Assembly: GCA_947624775.1 (NCBI GenBank)
Contig: CANQLT010000017.1
Span: forward strand, 1-37,215
Source of the DNA: an uncultured Monoglobus sp.
GTDB lineage: Bacteria; Bacillota; Clostridia; Monoglobales; Monoglobaceae
Reading direction: 5' to 3'
DNA length: 37,215 nucleotides
Part shown: positions 1,002-20,068 of the stretch, one piece after another
How the letters are laid out: each line of letters begins with the position of its first letter
Position numbering within the stretch: position 1 is the first letter of the stretch
The notes under the pieces: model-generated
Told to the model about the DNA's origin: nothing
The model's database searches: none
Seen by the model: only the letters and a program-made list of their open reading frames with translations
Position numbers and translations under genes: made by a program

Positions 1002-1030
1002 CGCGGGAATAGGCTTTGGCTATTCCCGCG
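1002..1030 (-). terminator. Rho-independent terminator of the ABC transporter operon
   Basis: CGCGGGAATAG/CTATTCCCGCG perfect 11-bp stem followed on the minus strand by CTTTTTGTTTT. Confidence 0.8.
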
Positions 1031-1036
1031 GGGTGT

Positions 1037-1831
1037 TTAGTTTAAAAGCGCTCTGTCGTTGGCGAATTCCTCGCCGCTGATGTCGGCGAATTTTTTTAGC
1101 AGGTCGTCGACCGTGAGCGACTTTTTCTCGTCGCCTTCGGCGCTGTAAATTATCCTGCCTTCGTGCATCATGATAAGCTTGTTGCCGTGGGTTATGGCGT
1201 CCTTCATGTTGTGGGTTATCATCATCGCGGTCAGGTCTTCCTCGCGGATAAACTTGTCCGAAAGCTCCAGCACGGTCGCCGCGGTCTTGGGATCGAGGGC
1301 CGCCGTGTGCTCGTCGAGCAGCAGCAGCTTGGGCTTCTGCATTACCGCCATCAGAAGCGTCAGCGCCTGGCGCTGGCCGCCCGACAGCAGTCCGACCTTG
1401 GTGGACAGCCTGTACTCAAGGCCGAGGCCCAGGTGGGACAGCATCTCTTTGTATACCTTGCGCTCCTTGTTGGTTATCGCCCATTTAAGGCCGTGGGATT
1501 TTCCTCTGCGATAGGCGATCGACATGTTTTCCTCGATCCACATGTCCGCGGCGGTGCCCATCATCGGGTCCTGGAACACGCGGCCGAGGTACTTGGCGCG
1601 CTTGTGCTCCGGCAGGCGCGTCACGTCTGCTCCGTCGATAACGATGCTGCCGCGGTCCACGCGGAACACGCCGCAAATGCTGTTGAGCAGCGTGGATTTT
1701 CCTGCGCCGTTGCCGCCGATTATCGTCACGAAGTCGCCTTCGTTAAGTGTCAGGTCAACGCCGCGCAAAGCCTGTTTCTCGTTGACGGTGCCCTTGTTGA
1801 ACGTCTTGTGGATATTTGTTACTTTAAGCAT
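1037..1831 (-). CDS. ABC transporter ATP-binding protein (TrpXYZ-like)
   Basis: Walker A GGNGAGKST, signature LSGGQRQ, Walker B LLLLDEH; operon with a permease and a substrate-binding protein. Confidence 0.92.
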   Translation of the reverse strand: MLKVTNIHKTFNKGTVNEKQALRGVDLTLNEGDFVTIIGGNGAGKSTLLNSICGVFRVDRGSIVIDGADVTRLPEHKRAKYLGRVFQDPMMGTAADMWIEENMSIAYRRGKSHGLKWAITNKERKVYKEMLSHLGLGLEYRLSTKVGLLSGGQRQALTLLMAVMQKPKLLLLDEHTAALDPKTAATVLELSDKFIREEDLTAMMITHNMKDAITHGNKLIMMHEGRIIYSAEGDEKKSLTVDDLLKKFADISGEEFANDRALLN

Positions 1832-2729
1832 CCTGCGCCGCCTCCTTATCCGTTTTTCTTTCGGCTATTTTGCGTTTCCAATACGGCACGCCCAGGAATA
1901 CCGCGACAACCAGAGCCGACAGCATCTTCAGGTCGTTGGCGTCAAGACCCGTTTGGAGAATAAGGGTGATAACCATATAATATATTATGCCGCCGATGAC
2001 CGCCGCCAGAAGCTTCAGCGCGAAGTTCTTGAATATCCGGCTCAGCAGCACCTCGCCGATAATGACCGCCGCAAGGCCGATAACGATCGCGCCGCGGCCC
2101 ATGTTGATGTCGGCGAAGCCCTGATACTGCGCCAGCAGCGCGCCCGACAGAGCGACCAGGCCGTTTGACAGCACAAGGCCGATTATCTTGTTGGTCTCGG
2201 TGTTGATTCCGTTGGCTCTCGCCATTTTCTGGTTGCAGCCCGTGGCGCGCAGCGAGTGGCCCAGCTCGGTGCCGAAGAACCAGTACATGACCGCGATGAT
2301 AACGACAACGAATATTGCGCCCGTGAGTATCGCGCCGGAAATGTTGCGCAGAGAGATCATGAGGTCATACTTTTCGACTGAGAGCGGCAGGTTCGCCTTC
2401 TGGGACATGATGCGCAGGTTTACCGAGTACAGAATAAACTGGGTCAGAATACCCGCGAGTATGGCCGGTATGCCGAACTTGGTGTGGAAAATTCCGGTTA
2501 TCAGACCCGCCAGACAGCCCGCGATAAAGGCGATAAGCAGAGCGAGCCACACGTTCATGCCTCCGGTCACGCAGACAACCAGCGTCGCGCCGCCCGTGGC
2601 CATGGTGCCGTCGACCGTAAGGTCGGCGACATCCAGTATCCTGAACGTTATGTAAACGCCCATCGCCATAATGCCCCAGATTATGCCCTGCGCTATCGCG
2701 CCCGGCATGGGGGCAAAAATACTTAGCAT
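1824..2729 (-). CDS. ABC transporter permease (branched-chain/TrpXYZ-like family)
   Basis: Multi-TM protein; MAMGVYITFRILDVADLTVDGTMATGGA is typical of these permeases; overlaps the ATPase gene start. Confidence 0.9.
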   Translation of the reverse strand: MLSIFAPMPGAIAQGIIWGIMAMGVYITFRILDVADLTVDGTMATGGATLVVCVTGGMNVWLALLIAFIAGCLAGLITGIFHTKFGIPAILAGILTQFILYSVNLRIMSQKANLPLSVEKYDLMISLRNISGAILTGAIFVVVIIAVMYWFFGTELGHSLRATGCNQKMARANGINTETNKIIGLVLSNGLVALSGALLAQYQGFADINMGRGAIVIGLAAVIIGEVLLSRIFKNFALKLLAAVIGGIIYYMVITLILQTGLDANDLKMLSALVVAVFLGVPYWKRKIAERKTDKEAAQDA

Positions 2730-2818
2730 TTATATCATCCTTCCGTTTGTGTTTAGCAAAGAAATTTGCAATGAGGCGGTTCCGCCCCATTGCAAATCCG
2801 TATTCGGTTTGATTTTGA

Positions 2819-3850
2819 TTATTCGGCGGCTTCCTCGGCCAGAGCCTCGTAATCATCGGGGATCGTGATTCCCAGCGCCTCGGCGCGCTCGGGTGAATAC
2901 ATCTTTGTGAGATCCTCGGCGTATCTGATCTCCATCTCGGCGGGATCCTTGCCGTTTACAAGTATGTCATAAGCCATCTCGCCCGCGGCCTGACCAAGGT
3001 TGTAGTAAGAGATAGAGAGAGTGGCGATGCCGCAGGCTCTGCAGATGCCCTCCTCACCGGCGATAACCGGAATGTTTGCGGGAACCGCGATGTTAGCGAC
3101 GATCTCGCCGTTGGCCGCAACCGTGTTGTCTGTGGGGATATAGAGCGCGTCCGCGCTGCCGCATGCCGTTGTGGTTACCGCCGCGATGTCATTGGAGTCC
3201 GCGAAAGGATACTCGGTCGTGGTGTAGCCCAGCTTTGCGAGCTCAGCCGCGACGATGTCGATCTGATACTTCGAGTTGGCCTCGTTTGAGCAGTAGAGCA
3301 GACCGATGTTTTTCGCGTCGGGCAAAAGCTCTTTGAACATAGCCGCCTGTTCCTCCAGAGGCGCCAGATCGGCTGTGCCCGTGATATTTCTGCCGGTCGT
3401 GCCCGTCCAGTCGTCGATATCGAGAGCCGTGGCGTAGTCTGTGATGGATGTGCCCACGATCGGGATCGAGTCTGTGGCGGCCGCCGCTGCCTGAAGCGCG
3501 GGAGTCGCGTTGGCAAAGATCAGGTCAACGTTTGAGGAAACCTGCTGATTGGCGATAGTGGCGCATGTCGCGCTGTCGCCGGCCGCGTTCTGAAGATCGA
3601 ACTCAACCTTGTCGCCCAGCTTGTCCTTAAGAGTGTCCATAAATCCCTCGGTCGCCTTGTCGAGAGCCTCGTGCTGGACCAGCTGAATGAGACCGATGCT
3701 GTAGCTCTCGGCGGAATCGGCCTTGGATTCGGCGCTGTCGCCCGATGTGCCGCTTGTGGTTCCTCCGGTGGTGCCGCCGCAGCCCGCCAGAGACATAACC
3801 GTGAGAGCGGAAGCGGCCAGAATTGCCAGTAACTTTTTCATTTTTTTCAT
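2819..3850 (-). CDS. ABC transporter substrate-binding lipoprotein (ABC_sub_bind family)
   Basis: Lipobox LAGC (VMSLAGCGG); YSIGLIQLVQHEALDKATEGFMDTLKD motif. Confidence 0.92.
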   Translation of the reverse strand: MKKMKKLLAILAASALTVMSLAGCGGTTGGTTSGTSGDSAESKADSAESYSIGLIQLVQHEALDKATEGFMDTLKDKLGDKVEFDLQNAAGDSATCATIANQQVSSNVDLIFANATPALQAAAAATDSIPIVGTSITDYATALDIDDWTGTTGRNITGTADLAPLEEQAAMFKELLPDAKNIGLLYCSNEANSKYQIDIVAAELAKLGYTTTEYPFADSNDIAAVTTTACGSADALYIPTDNTVAANGEIVANIAVPANIPVIAGEEGICRACGIATLSISYYNLGQAAGEMAYDILVNGKDPAEMEIRYAEDLTKMYSPERAEALGITIPDDYEALAEEAAE

Positions 3851-6886: not shown

Positions 6887-6893
6887 CAAGCAT

Positions 6894-6992
6894 AGGGATC
6901 CCAAAAAGCGTAAACGCTTTTTGGGAAAGAGGAGCAAACCCGGAGCGGGAGAGCGGTGTCGCTTGCGGCAGCGCGAACAAGCGGAGGGATTT
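6894..6992. repeat. Copy 1 of a 99-bp intergenic direct repeat
   Basis: Identical to 7013-7111 apart from one substitution found by eye (T6959/C7078). Contains CCCAAAAAGCG-TAAA-CGCTTTTTGGG. Confidence 0.9.
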
Positions 6993-7012
6993 TGAAAGGT
7001 GCCGAAAGGCAC

Positions 7013-7111
7013 AGGGATCCCAAAAAGCGTAAACGCTTTTTGGGAAAGAGGAGCAAACCCGGAGCGGGAGAGCGGTGCCGCTTGCGGCAGCGCGAACAAG
7101 CGGAGGGATTT
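7013..7111. repeat. Copy 2 of a 99-bp intergenic direct repeat
   Basis: Offset 119 bp from copy 1; same hairpin and CCGCTTG...CAAGCGG inverted repeat. Confidence 0.9.
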
Positions 7112-11253: not shown

Positions 11254-11388
11254 TTGTACTTTGAAAAACATTCCGATTTTTAAGCCGCGCTCAAATAAAT
11301 CTTGATTTACGGAGCAGAATGTGATAAAATATAAACGGATCAACCGACAAGGCACTGTATATGCAATTTTTATGAAAGGGAAAATATA

Positions 11389-11655
11389 ATGCCGGAATTA
11401 AGCAGATTTTATAATATAATAATAAAGATGATTTTTAATGATAACCTGCGTCATCACAAACCGCATGTGCATGTATATTATAATGAATATACAGCGGCGA
11501 TAGGCATAGATGGTGAATTGCTTGCGGGGAGTATACCGGTGAAGCAGCTGCGTTTAGTGGAGGCCTGGCTTACAATACATGAAAATGAATTATATGCCGC
11601 TTGGAATAACGCTGTTCGCGGTATTCCGTTTGGGAAAATTGAGCCTTTAAGATAG
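11389..11655 (+). CDS. DUF4160 family protein
   Basis: MIFNDNLRHHKPHVHVYYNEYTAAIGIDGELLAGSIPVKQLRLVEAWLTIHENELYAAWNNAVRG matches the DUF4160 pattern; paired with DUF2442. Confidence 0.85.
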   Translation: MPELSRFYNIIIKMIFNDNLRHHKPHVHVYYNEYTAAIGIDGELLAGSIPVKQLRLVEAWLTIHENELYAAWNNAVRGIPFGKIEPLR

Positions 11656-11666
11656 GAGGGAATATA

Positions 11667-11966
11667 ATGTATATTGTAGACGGAATAGCATACGCGGGAG
11701 ACAGGAAGCCTGTGTTAAGGGTTACGGGTGTTCGGCCTCTTAATGATTTTCGGCTCTGGACACGTTTTAACAACGGTGAGGCAAGAGTTTTTGATTTCAA
11801 ACCGCTGCTCAAAATGCCGGGATATGCCCCTCTTTCGAATATTGATACGTTCAAAGATGTTTATATTGATTACGGCGTGCCGGTATGGAACAACGGCGAT
11901 ATAGACATAGCGCCCGAATATCTGTATGAAAACGGTGTTTCCGATTTGGAGACAAAAATAGGATAA
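11667..11966 (+). CDS. DUF2442 family protein
   Basis: VTGVRPLNDFRLWTRFNNGEARVFDFKPLL...DYGVPVWNNGDIDIAPEYLYENG matches the DUF2442 pattern. Confidence 0.85.
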   Translation: MYIVDGIAYAGDRKPVLRVTGVRPLNDFRLWTRFNNGEARVFDFKPLLKMPGYAPLSNIDTFKDVYIDYGVPVWNNGDIDIAPEYLYENGVSDLETKIG

Positions 11967-11971
11967 ATAAA

Positions 11972-12002
11972 AATCCCTCTTGACAAAAGAGGGATTCGTT
12001 TT
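11972..12002 (+). terminator. Rho-independent terminator after the DUF4160/DUF2442 pair
   Basis: AATCCCTCTT-GACAA-AAGAGGGATT followed by CGTTTT. Confidence 0.75.
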
Positions 12003-12092
12003 GTAATCAAAATACTAGACTTTGCCGATCGAGATCCTGAAAAGTTTAAATCTGTTTATGTTATAAATGCTTGAACATGTTTTAAAATGAGT

Positions 12093-13178
12093 TCAAAATA
12101 AAATATTTTTAAAACACATCAAGGGTTCATTTTTGTCGTAATCCCATGTATGGTATGAACCTCCGTTGCAGAAATCCTTGTCGGGACAATCGGCGCATTT
12201 TGGGGTTAAGTCGGATAAATTGCTTCTGTAAATCTCAAATTTATTGTTCCAGATTTCGGTAAAGTCATCTTTTAAGATATTACCGTACAGCAATTCTTTT
12301 CGCGGCTCTATATCGAGACATGCGCTGATGTCTCCGTTGGCGTGGATCGACGCCACATATATTCCCGCGCTGCATAAGAAATACCAATCTCTTACTTCGC
12401 GTTCATAATCAAGACCGAGATAGTGGCTGCATCCGTATGAAACGGGCAGACAAAATCGCCTTTTATCACGGATATAATCCAAGATATATCTATACTCATC
12501 CGCGTCAAGCAGCAGGTCTTTGTTTGATCTCGCTCTTCCGATGGGATCGATATTTATTATCCGCCATGAGTCTACGTTCAAATCTGTCATAAGCTCAAAA
12601 AGCTCATCGAGTTGATTTATATTGTTTTTGTGAACAACGGTAGTGACCTGAACATTTTCAAAGGAACCATTTTTAAGAAGGGCTTTTATGCCGGATATCG
12701 CTTTGTCAAATCCGCCGGGAGAACGTCTGAAATTGTCATGAGTCTCGCGCAGTCCGTCGATGCTGACCGATATGGTTTTCATGCCGCTTTTTTCCAAAAG
12801 CTCCGCCTTTTTATCGTCGATCAATGTGGCGTTGCTGGTCATGCCCCAAGAATAACCCAAGTCGTTTGCGTAATTCATTATTTCAAAAAAGTCATCTCGA
12901 AGCAGAGGCTCGCCTCCCGTTATGCAAAGCTGGATTTCGCTTATGTCAAAATCATTTTTAACCTTGTTCAAAAAGCTTTTGTATTGATCAAATGTTAACT
13001 CATCGGAAAATCTGTCGCCGCAGCTGCTTCCGCAGTGCAGACATTTTTGATTGCACCTCAAAGTCAGCTCCAAAAAGAGCTTTTTAAGCATGGGCTTTTT
13101 TTGCAGCTCGCGGCGGTATTCGGCAAGCTGTTTCATGTGTGTGGTTTTAATTTCTTGCAAATTCATTTTATTCATCAT
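12093..13178 (-). CDS. Radical SAM/SPASM protein, putative peptide maturase
   Basis: CNQKCLHC (CxxxCxxC cluster motif), TGGEPLLR, SVSIDG; C-terminal Cys-rich SPASM-like region (CSAGI...ACLDIEPRK...CADCPDKDFCNGG...MCF). Confidence 0.9.
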   Translation of the reverse strand: MMNKMNLQEIKTTHMKQLAEYRRELQKKPMLKKLFLELTLRCNQKCLHCGSSCGDRFSDELTFDQYKSFLNKVKNDFDISEIQLCITGGEPLLRDDFFEIMNYANDLGYSWGMTSNATLIDDKKAELLEKSGMKTISVSIDGLRETHDNFRRSPGGFDKAISGIKALLKNGSFENVQVTTVVHKNNINQLDELFELMTDLNVDSWRIINIDPIGRARSNKDLLLDADEYRYILDYIRDKRRFCLPVSYGCSHYLGLDYEREVRDWYFLCSAGIYVASIHANGDISACLDIEPRKELLYGNILKDDFTEIWNNKFEIYRSNLSDLTPKCADCPDKDFCNGGSYHTWDYDKNEPLMCFKNILF

Positions 13179-13212
13179 AATATAGATCAGGTGTAATTGC
13201 GCGGTAAACCGT

Positions 13213-13629
13213 TTAGTAGTTTTCCGTAACAGTGTTCGGATTGTACATGGGCGGCGGCGGTGGATGCGTCATTGCAGGCGGCCCGTATAAGGTTGTGGGA
13301 ATAGTTATTGCGGCAGTGAACAGCAGAGCGGCACCGCCGAGAATAATGGCGCATAATATAGCGATCAAAATATATTTTGCTTTGCTTTTCTTTTTGTTTT
13401 GCACATTACTCGGAGGCGGCGGTCCGTAGAGCGGGTTAAGCACATTATCTTCGGGATCAAAGTCCGAGGAGAATTTTTCATTACTTGATTGCGGCCCGTA
13501 AGGTTCGAGAGTTATAGTATCTTCGGGATCAAAGCCCGAGGGGAATTTTTCATCACTCGGAGGCGGCCCGTAAACCTCGTGGGGTATGTTATCTTCGGGA
13601 TCAAAGTCCGAGGGGAATTTTTCATTCAT
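13213..13629 (-). CDS. Tandem-repeat single-TM small protein, candidate substrate or precursor of the adjacent radical SAM enzyme
   Basis: 138 aa with three 24-aa repeats (NEKFPSDFDPEDNIPHEVYGPPP / SDEKFPSGFDPEDTITLEPYGPQS / SNEKFSSDFDPEDNVLNPLYGPPP), KKKSKAK, a hydrophobic helix, then LYGPPAMTHPPPPPMYNPNTVTENY. Upstream of the radical SAM gene with a 34-nt gap. Confidence 0.75.
   Translation of the reverse strand: MNEKFPSDFDPEDNIPHEVYGPPPSDEKFPSGFDPEDTITLEPYGPQSSNEKFSSDFDPEDNVLNPLYGPPPPSNVQNKKKSKAKYILIAILCAIILGGAALLFTAAITIPTTLYGPPAMTHPPPPPMYNPNTVTENY
13414..13629 (-). repeat. Three in-frame 72-bp coding repeats
   Basis: Units 13629-13558, 13557-13486 and 13485-13414 share GAAAAATTC(C/T)CCTCGG(A/G)CTTTGATCCCGAAGAT at exact 72-bp spacing. 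Confidence 0.9.
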
Positions 13630-13668
13630 AATAATTACTCCAATCTTTCATTCTTGATTGATAAAATA

Positions 13669-13697
13669 AATATATCATATATTCTGATGATATGCAA
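13669..13697 (-). promoter_or_regulatory. Candidate promoter for the repeat-peptide/radical SAM operon
   Basis: Minus strand TTGCAT (13692-13697), 17-bp spacer, TATATT (13669-13674). Confidence 0.45.
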
Positions 13698-13879
13698 CAT
13701 ATTTTTCGAACATTTTCGACGGTATTTTTATATCGGTATACGGATTTTTAATTTTCGGCACAGCAATTTTTGGCTTGTTTTGTGTTTGATATGACTTTAT
13801 TTGATCCGCGCAGAGTGTTAGAATTAGGGTATAAAATACGAACGGTATATTTTTAAATCATTTAAAGGAGGAATTTTTT

Positions 13880-16800
13880 ATGAAACACGGCAGGATTTTA
13901 GCTCTCGCGCTTGTATTTTTGATGGCGCTGACCTGCGTTTATGTCCCGGCGTTTGCCGCGGCGGACTACGGCACGGCGACGGAAGACAACACCGGCGCGG
14001 TCACGCTGAATTTCGGCAATGACTCGATCACAACGAGCGGAGGCGGCTCGATCATCACGGACTCCGCCAACGGAAACGTGAAACGGCCCGACAATCTTAA
14101 GACCAATAAGGACGGCGCCGCGGTGCTCACGCTCCCCGAGGTCGATCTGAGCGGCAAGGACTGGACAAAAGTTGACCTGTACGCCGCAAGCAAGAACGAC
14201 GCGGCGGTCGTTATCAAGGTCGGCGAGACCGAGGTCGCGAGCTTTGACAATGTGAACAACGGCTCGTGGGATTCGTACCGCGTGAACACCGCGGAGCTTA
14301 AATCAACGGACGCCAAGGGCGCGGTCACGCTCAACATCACGCGCGACAACGCTTACTGCGGCAATTATGTTTACGTTAAATTCTACAATCCCGACGCCAA
14401 GCCGGAGCTGCTTCCTTATCAGGACGAGAGCCTCTCGTTTGAGGAAAGAGCGGCCGATCTGGTATCGCGCATGACGCTTGATGAAAAGGTTTATCAGATG
14501 GGAATGATGGCTCCCGCCATCGACAGACTGGGCGTCGCGTCCTACAACTATTGGCGCGAGGGCCTTCACGGAGTCGCCCGTCAGGGCAAAGCCACATCTT
14601 TCCCCTCGCCTCTGTCTTTATCGAACACATGGAACAGAGCTTTGGCGTTCGATATGGGCGACGTTACCTCGACCGAGGCGAGAATAAAGAACTCAAGGAC
14701 CGATTTGTCATACTGGAGCCCGACTATCAACATGGCGCGCGATCCGCGTTGGGGCCGCAACGAGGAGAGCATGGGCGAGGACCCGTATCTCACCGGACAG
14801 CTTGCGGCTCAATTTGTTGACGGCATGCAGGGCGACGACGAGAAATATTTAAAGGTCATCGCGACGCTCAAGCATTACGCGGCCAACAACAACGAGAACA
14901 ACAGAGGCGGCGGCAGCTCGGTTATGACCGAGTTCAACATGAGGAATTATTATGCCAAGGTGTTCCGGAACGTTACCGAGCAGGTAATGCCCGCGTCGGT
15001 GATGGCGTCATATAACGGAACCACGGTATACAGAAACAACGAGCTTTTGTATAACTTTATTCCGTCTATGGCGAACAAATATTTATTAAATGACCTTTTG
15101 AGAAAAGACTGGGGCTTTGACGGCTATGTGACGACCGACTGCGGAGCCGGTGCGAACCTTGAGGGCAGCAGCCAGTTCAAACAGGGAATGCTGGGCGATT
15201 CCTCATATGACATGGAAAGATATATAGCCGAGGCTGTTAAAAACGGTCTTAACACCGAGTGCAACTTGGGCGACAGATCGGCCCCCTCAAACGACAACAG
15301 AACTCAGAGCTACGGCATTGCAGCGGTTGAAAACGGATATATTACCGAGAACGAGATCGAGAGGGCGGTGTATGAGCTGTTCCTCCAGAGATTCAGGACC
15401 GGAGAGTTTGACAGCGACGTTTCGTACAGAAACACAAACGCGGCGGACCTTGAGTCTGACGCGAATGTGGCAAAGGCCGAGGCGGCGGCAGAGGAATCGT
15501 GGGTGCTTTTGAAGAACGACGACAGTATTCTGCCTCTTAATTCAAACGACAAGAAAATTGTTGTGGCAGGTCCGAGAGCGGCCGAGGTAACGCTGGGCGA
15601 CTATTCCGGAACCCCCACCAAGAACGTTACTCCAATAGAGGGCATCACCGCGGAGGTTGCGGCGCAGTATCCGGGATCGACGGTGCAGCAGGTCGGAGTT
15701 GTCGAGAACACCACCGCGCTGATGAATATAAAGAGCATAACGCTAATTGACGAAAAGGGCGGCAAGACGCCTGTTGATCTTTCAAAGGCGGAGGTTATCG
15801 GCGGCGGCGCGGTGACAAACGGCGTGATTACGGGAATTACCCGCGTATCCAAGGTGCATATACCTCAGATCGATTTCGCGAAAGCGGCGACGATAACAAT
15901 GGAGATCTCGACCGGCAGCGCGCCGGGCGGAACAGTCGCGGTACACTATGGAGAGGGCGGCCCCGAGGGCGCGTATATCAAGTCGCAGGACACCGCGGGT
16001 CTTGACGCATACGCCGAGTGCTCGGGCGAGTACACCGGAGCCGACGGCGGCTACAGCGGCACCGAGCTTATGGAGCTGACCTTTGAGGCCAACACTCCCG
16101 AGATAACGGCCGAAAGATACAAGGCCGAGTTCGACGCCGCGGACGTTATCATCGCGTACGCCGGCACAAACACGGGCGACTCCTCCGAGAGCCACGACCG
16201 CGCGAATATCGACCTGCCCGCGTCGCAGGCGCATGTTCAGTCAATTTGCGACGCTTATCCCGACAAGACGGTCGTTGTTATGTCAACTGTCGGACAGATC
16301 AATGTCGAGCCGTTTATGGATAAGTGCAAGGCTATTCTGTGGACGGCTTACAACGGTCAGACCCAGGGCACCGCGCTGGGCAAGGTCCTGACCGGTCAGG
16401 TCAACCCCTCGGGAAAGCTGACGACCACATGGTATAAAAACGACGACGTAAAGAAAATGGAGCTCTACGGCGGAAACAAGAAGATAGGCGACATTACCGG
16501 AGGCTATACCGATTATAATATTCAGGCTGACGGCACCAATCCGGGCCACACATATCAGTATTACGGCGGAACGCCGATCTATCCGTTCGGCTACGGCCTG
16601 AGCTACACAAACTTTGAATATTCAAATATGAAGGTGAGCGGCGGCGCGCCCGTGGAGGACACGAACCCCTACACTATCACCGGAGCGGAATATTCGGGCG
16701 GAAAGCTGAACGTCACATATACCAAGAAGGACGGCGCCCCCGAGGCGACGCTCATAGCCGCGGCGTACTCGGATCAGGCCGAGACAAACATGGTTGAGAC

Positions 16801-19800
16801 CGAGAGCGTTAAGATAGACGGCAGCGGCAGCCAGAGCATAGAGATTGCCGAGCCGCAGGGCGGCAAGACAAAGGTTTATATCTGGGAGAACACCGATTCG
16901 ATAAGGCCTTTAAGCTATACCAAAACGGTAGGCGAGGCTGAGGCGGGCGCTCCCGCATCGGGAGCGGACGCAAACGGCGCGCTGACATTCTCGGTAGACG
17001 TTACCAACACCGGAAACACCGCGGGAAAAGAGGCTGTTCAGCTCTATGTCGCGCATCCGAACGCGGGCGAGGGAACAACTCCCGCAAAGCAGCTCAAGGG
17101 CTTTGAAAAGATCGAGCTTAAGCCCGGCGAGACCAAGACCGTTTCTATTGAGCTTAACATAAGAGATATGTACCTGTTTGACGAGGCGGCGCAGAAGGAT
17201 ATAGTTCCCGAGGGCACATACACGGCCTATATGGCTTCAAGCTCGGCCGACACAAAGAACTCGGCGCAGTTCGAGGTCACAGGAACGCTTGCCTCAACAT
17301 TAAAGACGGTAAGAGCGAATCCGGACGGCGTGACCGTTCTGGGCAGAGTTGACGAAAACGGCAACGGCCACGAGGCGGTGAACAGCGTTAATTCAAACAT
17401 CAGCATAGTTATGAGCGATGAGACCGTGGTTGACCCGAGCGAAGCCGATATAACCTACGCGAGCGCGGACAGCGAGATCGCGACCGTTAACTCAAGCGGA
17501 GTTGTTGAGTCGGGAACAAAGATCGGCGTTACAACTATCACGGCGACCGTTACATACGGCGGCGAGACCAAGACCGCGTCATTCCCGATAGTGAACGAGC
17601 TGCAGATCAAGGCGAGCGATGCCGACAAGACGGCGGCGATCGCGCAGCTGACCGAGGTTCGCGACTCGCTTCCCAAGACGGCGTATACGGCCGAGAGCTG
17701 GGCCGAGATCGAGAAGATCTATACGGACGGCGTAAAGGCGGTAAACGATGCCGTGACAAAGGTTGATATAGAGAATATTATTCCCGGCGTTATTTCGGGA
17801 ATGAAGAACATCACGATGGATAACCTGAGCGAGACCTACACGATCGAGTCGGTAAATCCGCAGTTCATAGTCGACGGCGTTATTGATTACCGCGAAGGCG
17901 GAATACCGATGTACGAAAACGGCACGGGAACAGTCAACGAGGCGAACCCATACACGGGAGAGCTTGTCGCTAAAGACGCTTCCGGAAACAAGGTTGACGC
18001 GTCAAAGCTCACGTGGCAGATCAAAAAGGTTGATCCTTCGTCGCGCAAGGTGGCGGATATAGATAACGACACCGGCGCTCTGACGGTATACGGCAACGGC
18101 ATTGTGCAGATAACCGCAGCGGATATCGCGGCGGGAACCTGCGGCAGACTTATCGTCAAAGTCGAAACTCAGATCGAGGCCGAGACCGCGGACGACGGCG
18201 GCAAGGCCAATCTCAGAGACGCTCAGAACGGAGCCAGCGGCGGATTTGACGCGGGCAGCACGGCAAACGAGTGGATGCTCTATAAGTCGGTGAACCTTGA
18301 ATATATCGACAGCTTTATTGCCAGAGTAGCGGGCAGAAACGCGGGTATGATCTATGTAAGCCTTGACAAGAACTCAAAGGCAGAAAATCTGATAGCCTCC
18401 GTTCAGGCGGACGCGACAGGCGGCTGGGCGGCATGGACCGAAGTATCGCTTGATATCAACCCGAGCGTTATTGACGCGGCGAAAGCATCGGGCAAGATAG
18501 ACAAGGACGGCAGAGGTGACATATACATTCAGACAAACGGAGTAAACCTTGACTATTTCAGAATAAATCATTACGTGCCCAACGACGACACCCCGTATAT
18601 CGTGGGCAGAGCGCTCAACAAGCAGGGCGGCGACATAAAAGTCATGCTGACATACCGTGGCAGCGCGGCTCCGACAGACGCAGTGCTTGTGGCCGAGGTA
18701 TACGGCGCGAACGGCGCTCTAAAATCGACAAACACAAGCACAACGGTCAAGGGCGGCGGCGATTATGACATAAACGGTCTTAAAGCATCCGACGGCGACA
18801 CTGTTAAGCTCTATGTGATAAACAACACATCGGAAAACAAGCATCTTTCAGAGACCGCGGAGCATACTTACGCGGAGCCTGTGCCCAGCGAGATCGAGGT
18901 TATCACGCTCAACAAGGCTTACACAAGCTTTGATTACAGCCAGCTCACGTCGGGCACCAATGCTGACAGCACGCCGCTGGATTCGACCGTAAACGGCGTG
19001 TCGGGCTTCGGCTCATGGAAAGTTGTTGATTCAACCGCGAAATACACTTATAAGGATATTAACGAGAGCGAGTATAACTACGAGTTCACTCAGGCATGGC
19101 AGGCGGGCGGAGGAAACACGACCAACAGAAACTTCTATTTCACGCCCAAAAAGGTGCCCTGCAAGGTTTCGGCGGTATTCCAAGGCAGCGAGGCGGCCAG
19201 AAGCATGAAGATCTGGCAGAGCGATGACGTTAACGCCGAGACGCCCGGCGGCACCGGAACCGCGGCGGCGAGCCTTGAGATAACCGAAAAGGCGCCGGTA
19301 TATGTCTACGGCGGCAGCTCCAACAAGCAGCTCTACGCGATCATTATCGAGTATTACGGCTCGGCGAAAGCGGCCGACGCGGCAGATGAGCAAGACGAGG
19401 AGCCGGAGGATTTTGACAGACCCGTGCAGTACGCGGCGTGGAACGGAAAGGACGTTACGCTAACGAAAAATGACAGAACCGGCGAATCTAAAGTCTGGGT
19501 GGAGCTCCCCGATGGTATGCGCCTTCAGCTTCAAACCGACACATTTTACGCCTCGGATGTTCCGCAGAGCTATGGCGACAAGTATAACATAAACGCCCTT
19601 GCCGAGTACAACGGCAGATTGTACGCGGCCTGCGACGGCGGACTGGTTATCATGTTCACCGACTGCGCGAAGTGTTATCAGCTCAAAAAGGCGGCGGATA
19701 TCGACTTAAAGTATATGACGATTGAGGGAGATATCATGCTCGCGGGCGACGGCGAAAGCGAGATAAATATCCCGATGAGCGATTTGGGCGGCAATTCGAT

Positions 19801-20068
19801 AGAGGCCGACGAGGCGGGCGTTCTCCTCGCGGGCGGAGCAAAGCTGATCGACGTGCGCACCGCTGAGGAATACGCCGAGGACCATGCCGAAGGTTCCGTT
19901 AATATCCCGATTGACAATCTGGAGAATGGGCTTGCGGCCTACGAAAATGGCGATACATTGATCTTCTGCTGCGCGAGCGGCGGCAGAGCGGCCAAGGCGG
20001 TCGAGACCGCAAAGTCTCTCGGATACGCGAACGTTTACAACCTCGGCAGCTACGCGAAGATCAAATAG
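13880..20068 (+). CDS. Secreted multidomain glycoside hydrolase family 3 protein with C-terminal rhodanese domain
   Basis: Signal peptide (MKHGRILALALVFLMALTCVYVPAFAA); GH3 (NYWREGLHGVARQG, DPRWGRNEESMGEDPYL, KHYAANNNENNR, VTTDCGAG); GH3_C; Fn3-like (KPGETKTVSIELNIRDM); Ig-like and FIVAR-like segments; a CBM6-like segment; C-terminal rhodanese (KLIDVRTAEEYAEDHAEGSVNIP...IFCCASGGRAAKAVE). Confidence 0.9.
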   Translation: MKHGRILALALVFLMALTCVYVPAFAAADYGTATEDNTGAVTLNFGNDSITTSGGGSIITDSANGNVKRPDNLKTNKDGAAVLTLPEVDLSGKDWTKVDLYAASKNDAAVVIKVGETEVASFDNVNNGSWDSYRVNTAELKSTDAKGAVTLNITRDNAYCGNYVYVKFYNPDAKPELLPYQDESLSFEERAADLVSRMTLDEKVYQMGMMAPAIDRLGVASYNYWREGLHGVARQGKATSFPSPLSLSNTWNRALAFDMGDVTSTEARIKNSRTDLSYWSPTINMARDPRWGRNEESMGEDPYLTGQLAAQFVDGMQGDDEKYLKVIATLKHYAANNNENNRGGGSSVMTEFNMRNYYAKVFRNVTEQVMPASVMASYNGTTVYRNNELLYNFIPSMANKYLLNDLLRKDWGFDGYVTTDCGAGANLEGSSQFKQGMLGDSSYDMERYIAEAVKNGLNTECNLGDRSAPSNDNRTQSYGIAAVENGYITENEIERAVYELFLQRFRTGEFDSDVSYRNTNAADLESDANVAKAEAAAEESWVLLKNDDSILPLNSNDKKIVVAGPRAAEVTLGDYSGTPTKNVTPIEGITAEVAAQYPGSTVQQVGVVENTTALMNIKSITLIDEKGGKTPVDLSKAEVIGGGAVTNGVITGITRVSKVHIPQIDFAKAATITMEISTGSAPGGTVAVHYGEGGPEGAYIKSQDTAGLDAYAECSGEYTGADGGYSGTELMELTFEANTPEITAERYKAEFDAADVIIAYAGTNTGDSSESHDRANIDLPASQAHVQSICDAYPDKTVVVMSTVGQINVEPFMDKCKAILWTAYNGQTQGTALGKVLTGQVNPSGKLTTTWYKNDDVKKMELYGGNKKIGDITGGYTDYNIQADGTNPGHTYQYYGGTPIYPFGYGLSYTNFEYSNMKVSGGAPVEDTNPYTITGAEYSGGKLNVTYTKKDGAPEATLIAAAYSDQAETNMVETESVKIDGSGSQSIEIAEPQGGKTKVYIWENTDSIRPLSYTKTVGEAEAGAPASGADANGALTFSVDVTNTGNTAGKEAVQLYVAHPNAGEGTTPAKQLKGFEKIELKPGETKTVSIELNIRDMYLFDEAAQKDIVPEGTYTAYMASSSADTKNSAQFEVTGTLASTLKTVRANPDGVTVLGRVDENGNGHEAVNSVNSNISIVMSDETVVDPSEADITYASADSEIATVNSSGVVESGTKIGVTTITATVTYGGETKTASFPIVNELQIKASDADKTAAIAQLTEVRDSLPKTAYTAESWAEIEKIYTDGVKAVNDAVTKVDIENIIPGVISGMKNITMDNLSETYTIESVNPQFIVDGVIDYREGGIPMYENGTGTVNEANPYTGELVAKDASGNKVDASKLTWQIKKVDPSSRKVADIDNDTGALTVYGNGIVQITAADIAAGTCGRLIVKVETQIEAETADDGGKANLRDAQNGASGGFDAGSTANEWMLYKSVNLEYIDSFIARVAGRNAGMIYVSLDKNSKAENLIASVQADATGGWAAWTEVSLDINPSVIDAAKASGKIDKDGRGDIYIQTNGVNLDYFRINHYVPNDDTPYIVGRALNKQGGDIKVMLTYRGSAAPTDAVLVAEVYGANGALKSTNTSTTVKGGGDYDINGLKASDGDTVKLYVINNTSENKHLSETAEHTYAEPVPSEIEVITLNKAYTSFDYSQLTSGTNADSTPLDSTVNGVSGFGSWKVVDSTAKYTYKDINESEYNYEFTQAWQAGGGNTTNRNFYFTPKKVPCKVSAVFQGSEAARSMKIWQSDDVNAETPGGTGTAAASLEITEKAPVYVYGGSSNKQLYAIIIEYYGSAKAADAADEQDEEPEDFDRPVQYAAWNGKDVTLTKNDRTGESKVWVELPDGMRLQLQTDTFYASDVPQSYGDKYNINALAEYNGRLYAACDGGLVIMFTDCAKCYQLKKAADIDLKYMTIEGDIMLAGDGESEINIPMSDLGGNSIEADEAGVLLAGGAKLIDVRTAEEYAEDHAEGSVNIPIDNLENGLAAYENGDTLIFCCASGGRAAKAVETAKSLGYANVYNLGSYAKIK

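Follow-up and report, generated by a model that had tools for sequence, protein, structure and literature searches.

A radical SAM/SPASM enzyme paired with an X-Tyr-Gly repeat membrane protein in an uncultured Monoglobus: a candidate splicease-type cassette

Introduction

The splicease PlpX, a member of IPR026482, acts with the RRE protein PlpY to cut tyramine from Xaa-Tyr-Gly, leaving an alpha-keto amide (PMC11002830). One precursor can undergo several splicing events (PMC10373908), and the spliced products are protease inhibitors (PMC10373908; PMC11117315). The known splicease requires PlpY and careful placement of the tag (PMC10533398), and its substrates are precursors of the Nif11/NHLP type. 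A second described system is the pair TIGR04133 (rSAM_w_lipo) and TIGR04134 (lipo_with_rSAM) of Bacteroidota and Treponema, which we found on record as a gene pairing only. The partners of TIGR04133 enzymes are lipoproteins with one site, X-Y-G-[STM]-P, at the lipobox Cys or immediately behind it. TIGR03913 GDL-motif maturases form a third system with DUF1843 peptides, which are small, soluble, arranged in arrays and have X-Y-[GAM] close to the N terminus, the Gly not being strict.

Here we describe a two-gene cassette within a 37,215-nt stretch of contig CANQLT010000017.1 from an uncultured Monoglobus sp. (the whole stretch is called the window below). Like the TIGR04133/TIGR04134 pair, it has an adjacent partner gene and an enzyme of a sister group with CGSxC and the same missing SPASM Cys. 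Unlike that pair, its partner is a transmembrane (TM) protein in which the unit is repeated and has an FxP-x8 anchor, and its enzyme scores 287 bits against the TIGR04133 cut-off of 425. The carboxypeptidase-regulatory-like domain of the Parabacteroides TIGR04133 partner is another feature that the window partner does not share. With PlpX/PlpY the cassette has in common a wider clade (through TIGR04103-type enzymes), an X-Tyr-Gly core and multiple sites per substrate; it differs in having no leader peptide, no PlpY or RRE and another class of substrate, and splicing chemistry in the window would be by analogy.

The first-pass annotation, made from the DNA letters, had put the pair forward as a candidate undescribed one. 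"Undescribed" was too strong, because the names of TIGR04133 and TIGR04134 already record such a pairing in other phyla. Our literature search returned nothing on YGPP together with radical SAM, on TIGR04133/04134, or on dockerin with radical SAM and R. flavefaciens; a survey of splicease distribution was outside its scope.

Organization of the cassette and its repeat protein

The cassette spans positions 11988 to 13744 (about 1.76 kb, taken without regard to strand), and both of its genes lie on the minus strand as intact ORFs. The upstream gene (13213-13629) encodes a 138-amino-acid putative substrate, and after 34 nt it is followed by the gene for a 361-amino-acid TIGR04133-like maturase (12093-13178) with Pfam Radical_SAM and SPASM domains. 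A GGAG sequence resembling a ribosome binding site lies directly 5' of the first ATG.

The 138-amino-acid protein begins with three repeats of exactly 24 residues each (residues 3-26, 27-50 and 51-74), in which FDPED and YGP enclose the centres NIPHEV, TITLEP and NVLNPL. Repeat 1, EKFPSDFDPEDNIPHEVYGPPPSD (13552-13623, minus strand), has VYG as its XYG at 13567-13575 and matched the motif profile in its own genome with an E value of 3.6e-7. Repeat 2, EKFPSGFDPEDTITLEPYGPQSSN (13480-13551, minus strand; PYG at 13495-13503), matched at 1.6e-4, and repeat 3, EKFSSDFDPEDNVLNPLYGPPPPS (13408-13479, minus strand; LYG at 13423-13431), at 1.1e-4. At the DNA level Tandem Repeats Finder reported a 72-bp period over 13446-13626 with 84% matches and a score of 257. 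The repeats are followed on the same strand by the basic stretch KKKSKAK (13375-13395), one TM helix (residues 87-110, 13300-13371; hydropathy maximum 2.96, from residue 87) and a Pro-rich tail. The fourth XYG, which lies in this tail at 13282-13290, is an LYG with PP after it and no FxP anchor. This layout is as the first-pass annotation had drawn it. By the positive-inside rule the N terminus with its repeats is predicted to be cytoplasmic and the tail external. Pfam found no domain in the protein, a lipobox is absent, and a motif and profile search of the window genome found no second protein bearing the unit.

The recognition unit and the proteins that carry it

To define what is fixed in the motif we used 128 substrate proteins from orthologous loci. 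YG occurred 467 times against 61 expected, an excess that is partly by construction because the 128 proteins were picked for YGP. The spacing from [FY]xP to YG was exactly 8 residues in 125 cases, while any other spacing from 3 to 15 occurred 0 to 10 times. When units were strictly anchored and YG was not required, 109 of 124 had YG, and none had PP without it. The recognition unit is thus [FY]xP-x8-X-Y-G. YGP had been put forward as constant, and its YG part stands as the fixed core, whereas the first P is absent in 15 of these 109 units: the invariant core is X-Tyr-Gly, and Pro-Pro is frequent yet dispensable. Residue X is most often V (264), then L (67) and A (42), with others making up the rest. 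The four sites of the window protein (VYG, PYG, LYG and LYG) all conform to the X-Tyr-Gly splice motif.

Simple patterns applied to the 128 proteins marked about 55 as having a lipobox and about 51 as dockerin-like, and showed a hydrophobic segment at the N terminus of most; Pfam confirmed Dockerin_1 in all three dockerin-like proteins tested. Since these units ride on secreted lipoproteins and dockerin proteins, the modified sites would usually reach the cell surface. In another genus of the window's family (G031) the partner is a 97-residue zinc-ribbon, tail-anchored protein with FRPHENFTPCVYGSPEWM. Other units are found in trans: a DUF805 membrane protein carries them in G554, and zinc-ribbon proteins do so in G259 and G526 (in the latter beside its enzyme). 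A DUF805 membrane protein with XYG units in its tail (L162, 1228-1989, minus strand) adjoins a trigger-factor-like gene, the radical SAM gene being on a different contig. In an enzyme-positive Ruminococcus genome, an ArgC-like semialdehyde dehydrogenase is joined in frame to a zinc ribbon that carries YEPYDDIMQCVYGPP in trans (L196, 1381-2655); here the unit's carrier is seemingly cytosolic.

Pairing of enzyme and motif across genomes

A scan of species genomes for the enzyme gave 80 loci, mostly from Ruminococcus and Oscillospiraceae and 56-64% identical; the enzyme ORF could be read in 79 of them, on which the adjacency counts are based. One or more YGP ORFs lie upstream of the enzyme at 75 of the 79 loci, mostly immediately upstream. 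At L033, L035 and L041 a YGP protein lies downstream; L041 counts towards the 75 solely because of a distant ORF. L058 stops at a contig end, and at L081 a YGP protein is absent beside the enzyme. When neighbouring ORFs of 86 loci were clustered, the one real family to recur next to the enzyme was that of the YGP proteins (79 of 86). The enzyme gene itself seems to account, through shadow ORFs, for the remaining large clusters; ordinary neighbours recurred in at most 15 loci, and no peptidase, transporter, leader or RRE gene recurred beside the pair.

Co-occurrence was counted in 150 genomes, one per genus, from the family of G259, with thresholds of E below 1e-60 for the enzyme and E up to 0.01 for the motif profile. 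The enzyme was present in 11 genomes and the motif in 7, that is, in 7 of 11 enzyme-positive and 0 of 139 enzyme-negative genomes (P = 1.1e-9). Two more of the 11 (G456 and G486) have adjacent VYGPP lipoproteins under the profile threshold; in the remaining two (G463 and G475) a YGP protein was not found beside the enzyme in the stretches read. A motif living mostly away from radical SAM genes, which the first-pass annotation had said would count against it, is not what we see, because all 7 motif genomes lie among the 11 enzyme genomes.

The pairing is not chance. Adjacency and co-occurrence support the proposal of an enzyme-substrate pair with repeated modification sites, and there is strong support for a cassette acting at X-Tyr-Gly, which we judge highly probable. 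The window membrane protein is very probably modified by the adjacent enzyme at its repeated Tyr-Gly sites. That a Pro-rich surface protein merely neighbours a radical SAM gene of other function might be argued from the two enzyme-positive genomes in which no YGP protein was seen beside the enzyme. This view is already disfavoured, and we consider it scarcely credible given the co-occurrence, the 78 of 79 loci at which the genes are adjacent or nearly so, and the joint gain or loss of the cassette in the window's genus (see below).

Family, motifs and predicted structure of the enzyme

The best NCBIfam family of the enzyme is TIGR04133, with the 287 bits given above (E 1.6e-85). Taking IPR026482 as TIGR04103, the score places it outside the PlpX family (108 bits, cut-off 725), and the model of the heme enzyme AhbD scored higher (171 bits). 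No Nif11 or nitrile-hydratase-type leader was matched by NCBIfam or Pfam at the pair, and TIGR04134 matched neither the window protein nor, above its cut-off, anything else in the genome. Identity as an anaerobic sulfatase maturase, a possibility that the first-pass annotation had wished to see checked, was rejected: the anSME model is absent among the best 25 NCBIfam matches, no sulfatase gene is among the neighbours read, and the tree described below puts the enzyme in a clade of XY(G) peptide maturases.

The SAM-cluster motif CX3CX2C with a fourth invariant Cys (CGSxC), CNQKCLHCGSSC, lies at 13020-13055 (minus strand), and the SPASM domain, with C269, C287, C328xxC331x5C337 and C355 as auxiliary Fe-S ligands, at 12114-12374 (minus strand). 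C42, C46, C49, C53, C250 and the six SPASM Cys are invariant among 39 aligned orthologues (numbers are those of the full protein, one higher than in that alignment). A motif alignment showed that the usual sixth Cys of SPASM domains (CX2CX5CX3C) is absent from the window enzyme, as it is from TIGR04133 members. The auxiliary-cluster chemistry may therefore differ from that of PlpX.

The structure model of the enzyme (pLDDT 85, pTM 0.87) has one helix ahead of the barrel and no fused RRE. With no conserved small neighbour gene either, a PlpY-like RRE partner was not found. The nearest solved folds are SkfB, SuiB, the CteB type and anSME.

Phylogeny and clade-mates

A maximum-likelihood tree was built without long-branch rows, with named relatives drawn from plasmid records; it holds three TIGR04133 members, one TIGR04103 member and no sactipeptide or epimerase families. 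The window family and the TIGR04133 members (from Parabacteroides, Phocaeicola and Treponema) are sister clades with support of 100/99. Together with TIGR04103 (PlpX-like), TIGR03913 and NHLP-type enzymes they form one clade (98/97), outside which fall the heme, TIGR04053, mycofactocin and ACGX enzymes. The SAM motif reads HCGS in 19 of 19 clade members and HCY, HCR or HCL in most outgroups.

The genes beside these enzymes encode XY(G)-bearing partners in every branch of the clade. Lipoproteins beside TIGR04133 enzymes carry CEYGSPHANF (Parabacteroides), CEYGTPSADY (Phocaeicola) and SCYGMPENYY (Treponema). A Nif11 peptide of Nostoc ending in IALYGLPPELF is followed by a TIGR04103 enzyme gene and a 71-residue gene, a layout like PlpA-PlpX-PlpY; it fits IPR026482 containing TIGR04103, as we presume it does. 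The Bacillota loci L102 and L104 have TIGR04103-like enzymes with the peptides TAYGIARP and LAYGVPIH; the NHLP leader model has a match in the peptide from L102. Azospirillum and Aureibacter have DUF1843 peptides (KPYGVAI, MLYGGAM, PMYMATM) with TIGR03913-type enzymes. In substrates of the TIGR03913 branch and at L103, Tyr is often followed by Ala or Met instead of Gly; the clade therefore shares Tyr and not strictly XYG.

At L103 a chagasin-family (I42) protease-inhibitor domain is fused to KYAAP-type repeats (2557-3507, minus strand); it adjoins a TIGR03913/TIGR04103-like radical SAM gene (1012-2541, minus strand) whose product has a long C-terminal extension, like the TPR-bearing L102 relative. 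This fusion is consistent with a role of the clade in making protease-inhibiting groups. On a Tropicibacter plasmid a TIGR03913-branch radical SAM gene (L225, 706-1677) adjoins genes for a phosphotransferase with the N terminus DFYGLPPG and a trypsin-like peptidase.

Proposed reaction and alternatives

We suggest that one gene of the cassette encodes a maturase dedicated to the protein encoded by the other. The enzyme would need neither leader peptide nor RRE partner to read a short portable unit, [FY]xP-x8-X-Tyr-Gly(-Pro-Pro), within the N-terminal repeats on the cytoplasmic side, and would excise tyramine at X-Tyr-Gly to leave an alpha-keto-beta-amino residue. The sites so modified would stay on the membrane protein rather than be released as free peptides, and ketoamides at the cell surface could inhibit proteases or react with nucleophiles. 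Because of the XYG core and the clade shared with PlpX-like enzymes, tyramine excision is the likeliest reaction here. By this analogy we think it reasonably probable that the enzyme is a splicease-type maturase, leaderless and RRE-less, which turns X-Tyr-Gly sites of envelope proteins into alpha-keto-beta-amino residues. Support for PlpX-type splicing is moderate, with the low TIGR04103 score (below that of AhbD), the lack of PlpY and leader, the loose Gly after Tyr in the TIGR03913 branch and at L103, and the missing SPASM Cys 6 as counterpoints. One of the three window repeats has Pro as X, and we found no record of PlpX accepting Pro there.

The same pair may carry out another Tyr-centred reaction, such as a cyclophane-like C-C or C-O crosslink, Tyr cleavage with no re-ligation afterwards, or epimerisation of X or of Tyr. 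The nearest solved folds are of diverse chemistry, and the missing Cys and the TIGR03913-branch substrates without strict Gly also speak for this. However, YG is fixed, no second conserved residue suited to a crosslink stands at a fixed spacing save the [FY]xP anchor, and the closest clade-mates of known chemistry are of the PlpX type (PMC11002830). We regard such a reaction as rather unlikely, if clearly the most serious rival. The first-pass annotation had foreseen Tyr/Pro/Asp chemistry and no thioethers. A Tyr-centred reaction is supported (thioether chemistry was rejected, Cys being absent from the window repeats). Crosslink, cyclophane and epimerisation, which that annotation had named, are made less likely than tyramine excision by the XYG core and the enzyme's kinship with PlpX. 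The annotation had also seen in the constant flanks and variable centres of the repeats a multi-core RiPP precursor, from which modified cores would be released and exported as small bioactive peptides. This is very improbable: no conserved leader, peptidase, transporter or RRE gene accompanies the pair, and in most relatives the protein is a lipoprotein or a dockerin protein and has a signal peptide of its own. With units on these and, partly in trans, on proteins of the DUF805 and zinc-ribbon kinds, the product would seem to be the protein itself.

Returning to tyramine excision, a more specific version is that [FY]xP-x8-X-Y-G is a leaderless 13-residue tag, acquired in evolution by lipoproteins and by dockerin, tail-anchored, DUF805 and even cytosolic zinc-ribbon proteins, which directs excision in situ by one stand-alone enzyme. 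We hold this version tentatively, at slightly worse than even chances. If it is true, the cassette is a protein-modification system producing reactive surface ketoamides and not a natural-product pathway. Common rumen and gut bacteria would then bear backbone-edited beta-amino residues on structural proteins of their surface, dockerin proteins of Ruminococcus flavefaciens among them; installing them would need neither leader peptide nor partner protein; and a short tag with a single enzyme would be attractive for site-specific protein labelling. The occurrence of the pairing in many gut bacteria may reflect a widespread, little-noticed chemical editing of bacterial surface proteins. The splicease reading also gives TIGR04133/TIGR04134 a testable chemistry.

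Presence, absence and genomic setting of the cassette

Among 12 genomes of the window's genus, the enzyme at TIGR04133 level occurs in G000 only. In blastn, the match of the congener G010 (L217) to the window runs from 11283 to 11987 (95.5%) and is taken up again at 13745; the two parts are 71 bp apart in G010, without the pair between them. G011 (L214) resumes at the identical right breakpoint, base 13745. G010 keeps both flanks, DUF4160/DUF2442 up to 11987 and GH3 from 13745, so the segment missing from its homologous site is the whole cassette. At a GC content of 0.41 the cassette is poorer in GC than the window as a whole (0.53). The radical SAM/repeat-protein pair is thus gained or lost as one unit.

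The DUF4160/DUF2442 gene pair (11389-11966) flanks the cassette, and a Roseburia plasmid (L156) has a similar pair next to an ACGX radical SAM peptide system. A functional tie was rejected and the link is probably coincidence, because the window's DUF4160/DUF2442 pair persists in G010 without the cassette. On the other side, positions 13880-20068 encode a secreted GH3 glycosidase of 2062 amino acids that also has CBM6 and Big_2 domains and, in an unusual fusion, ends in a rhodanese domain. Elsewhere in the window, a near-perfect 119-bp tandem duplication (98% matches) lies at 6890-7111.
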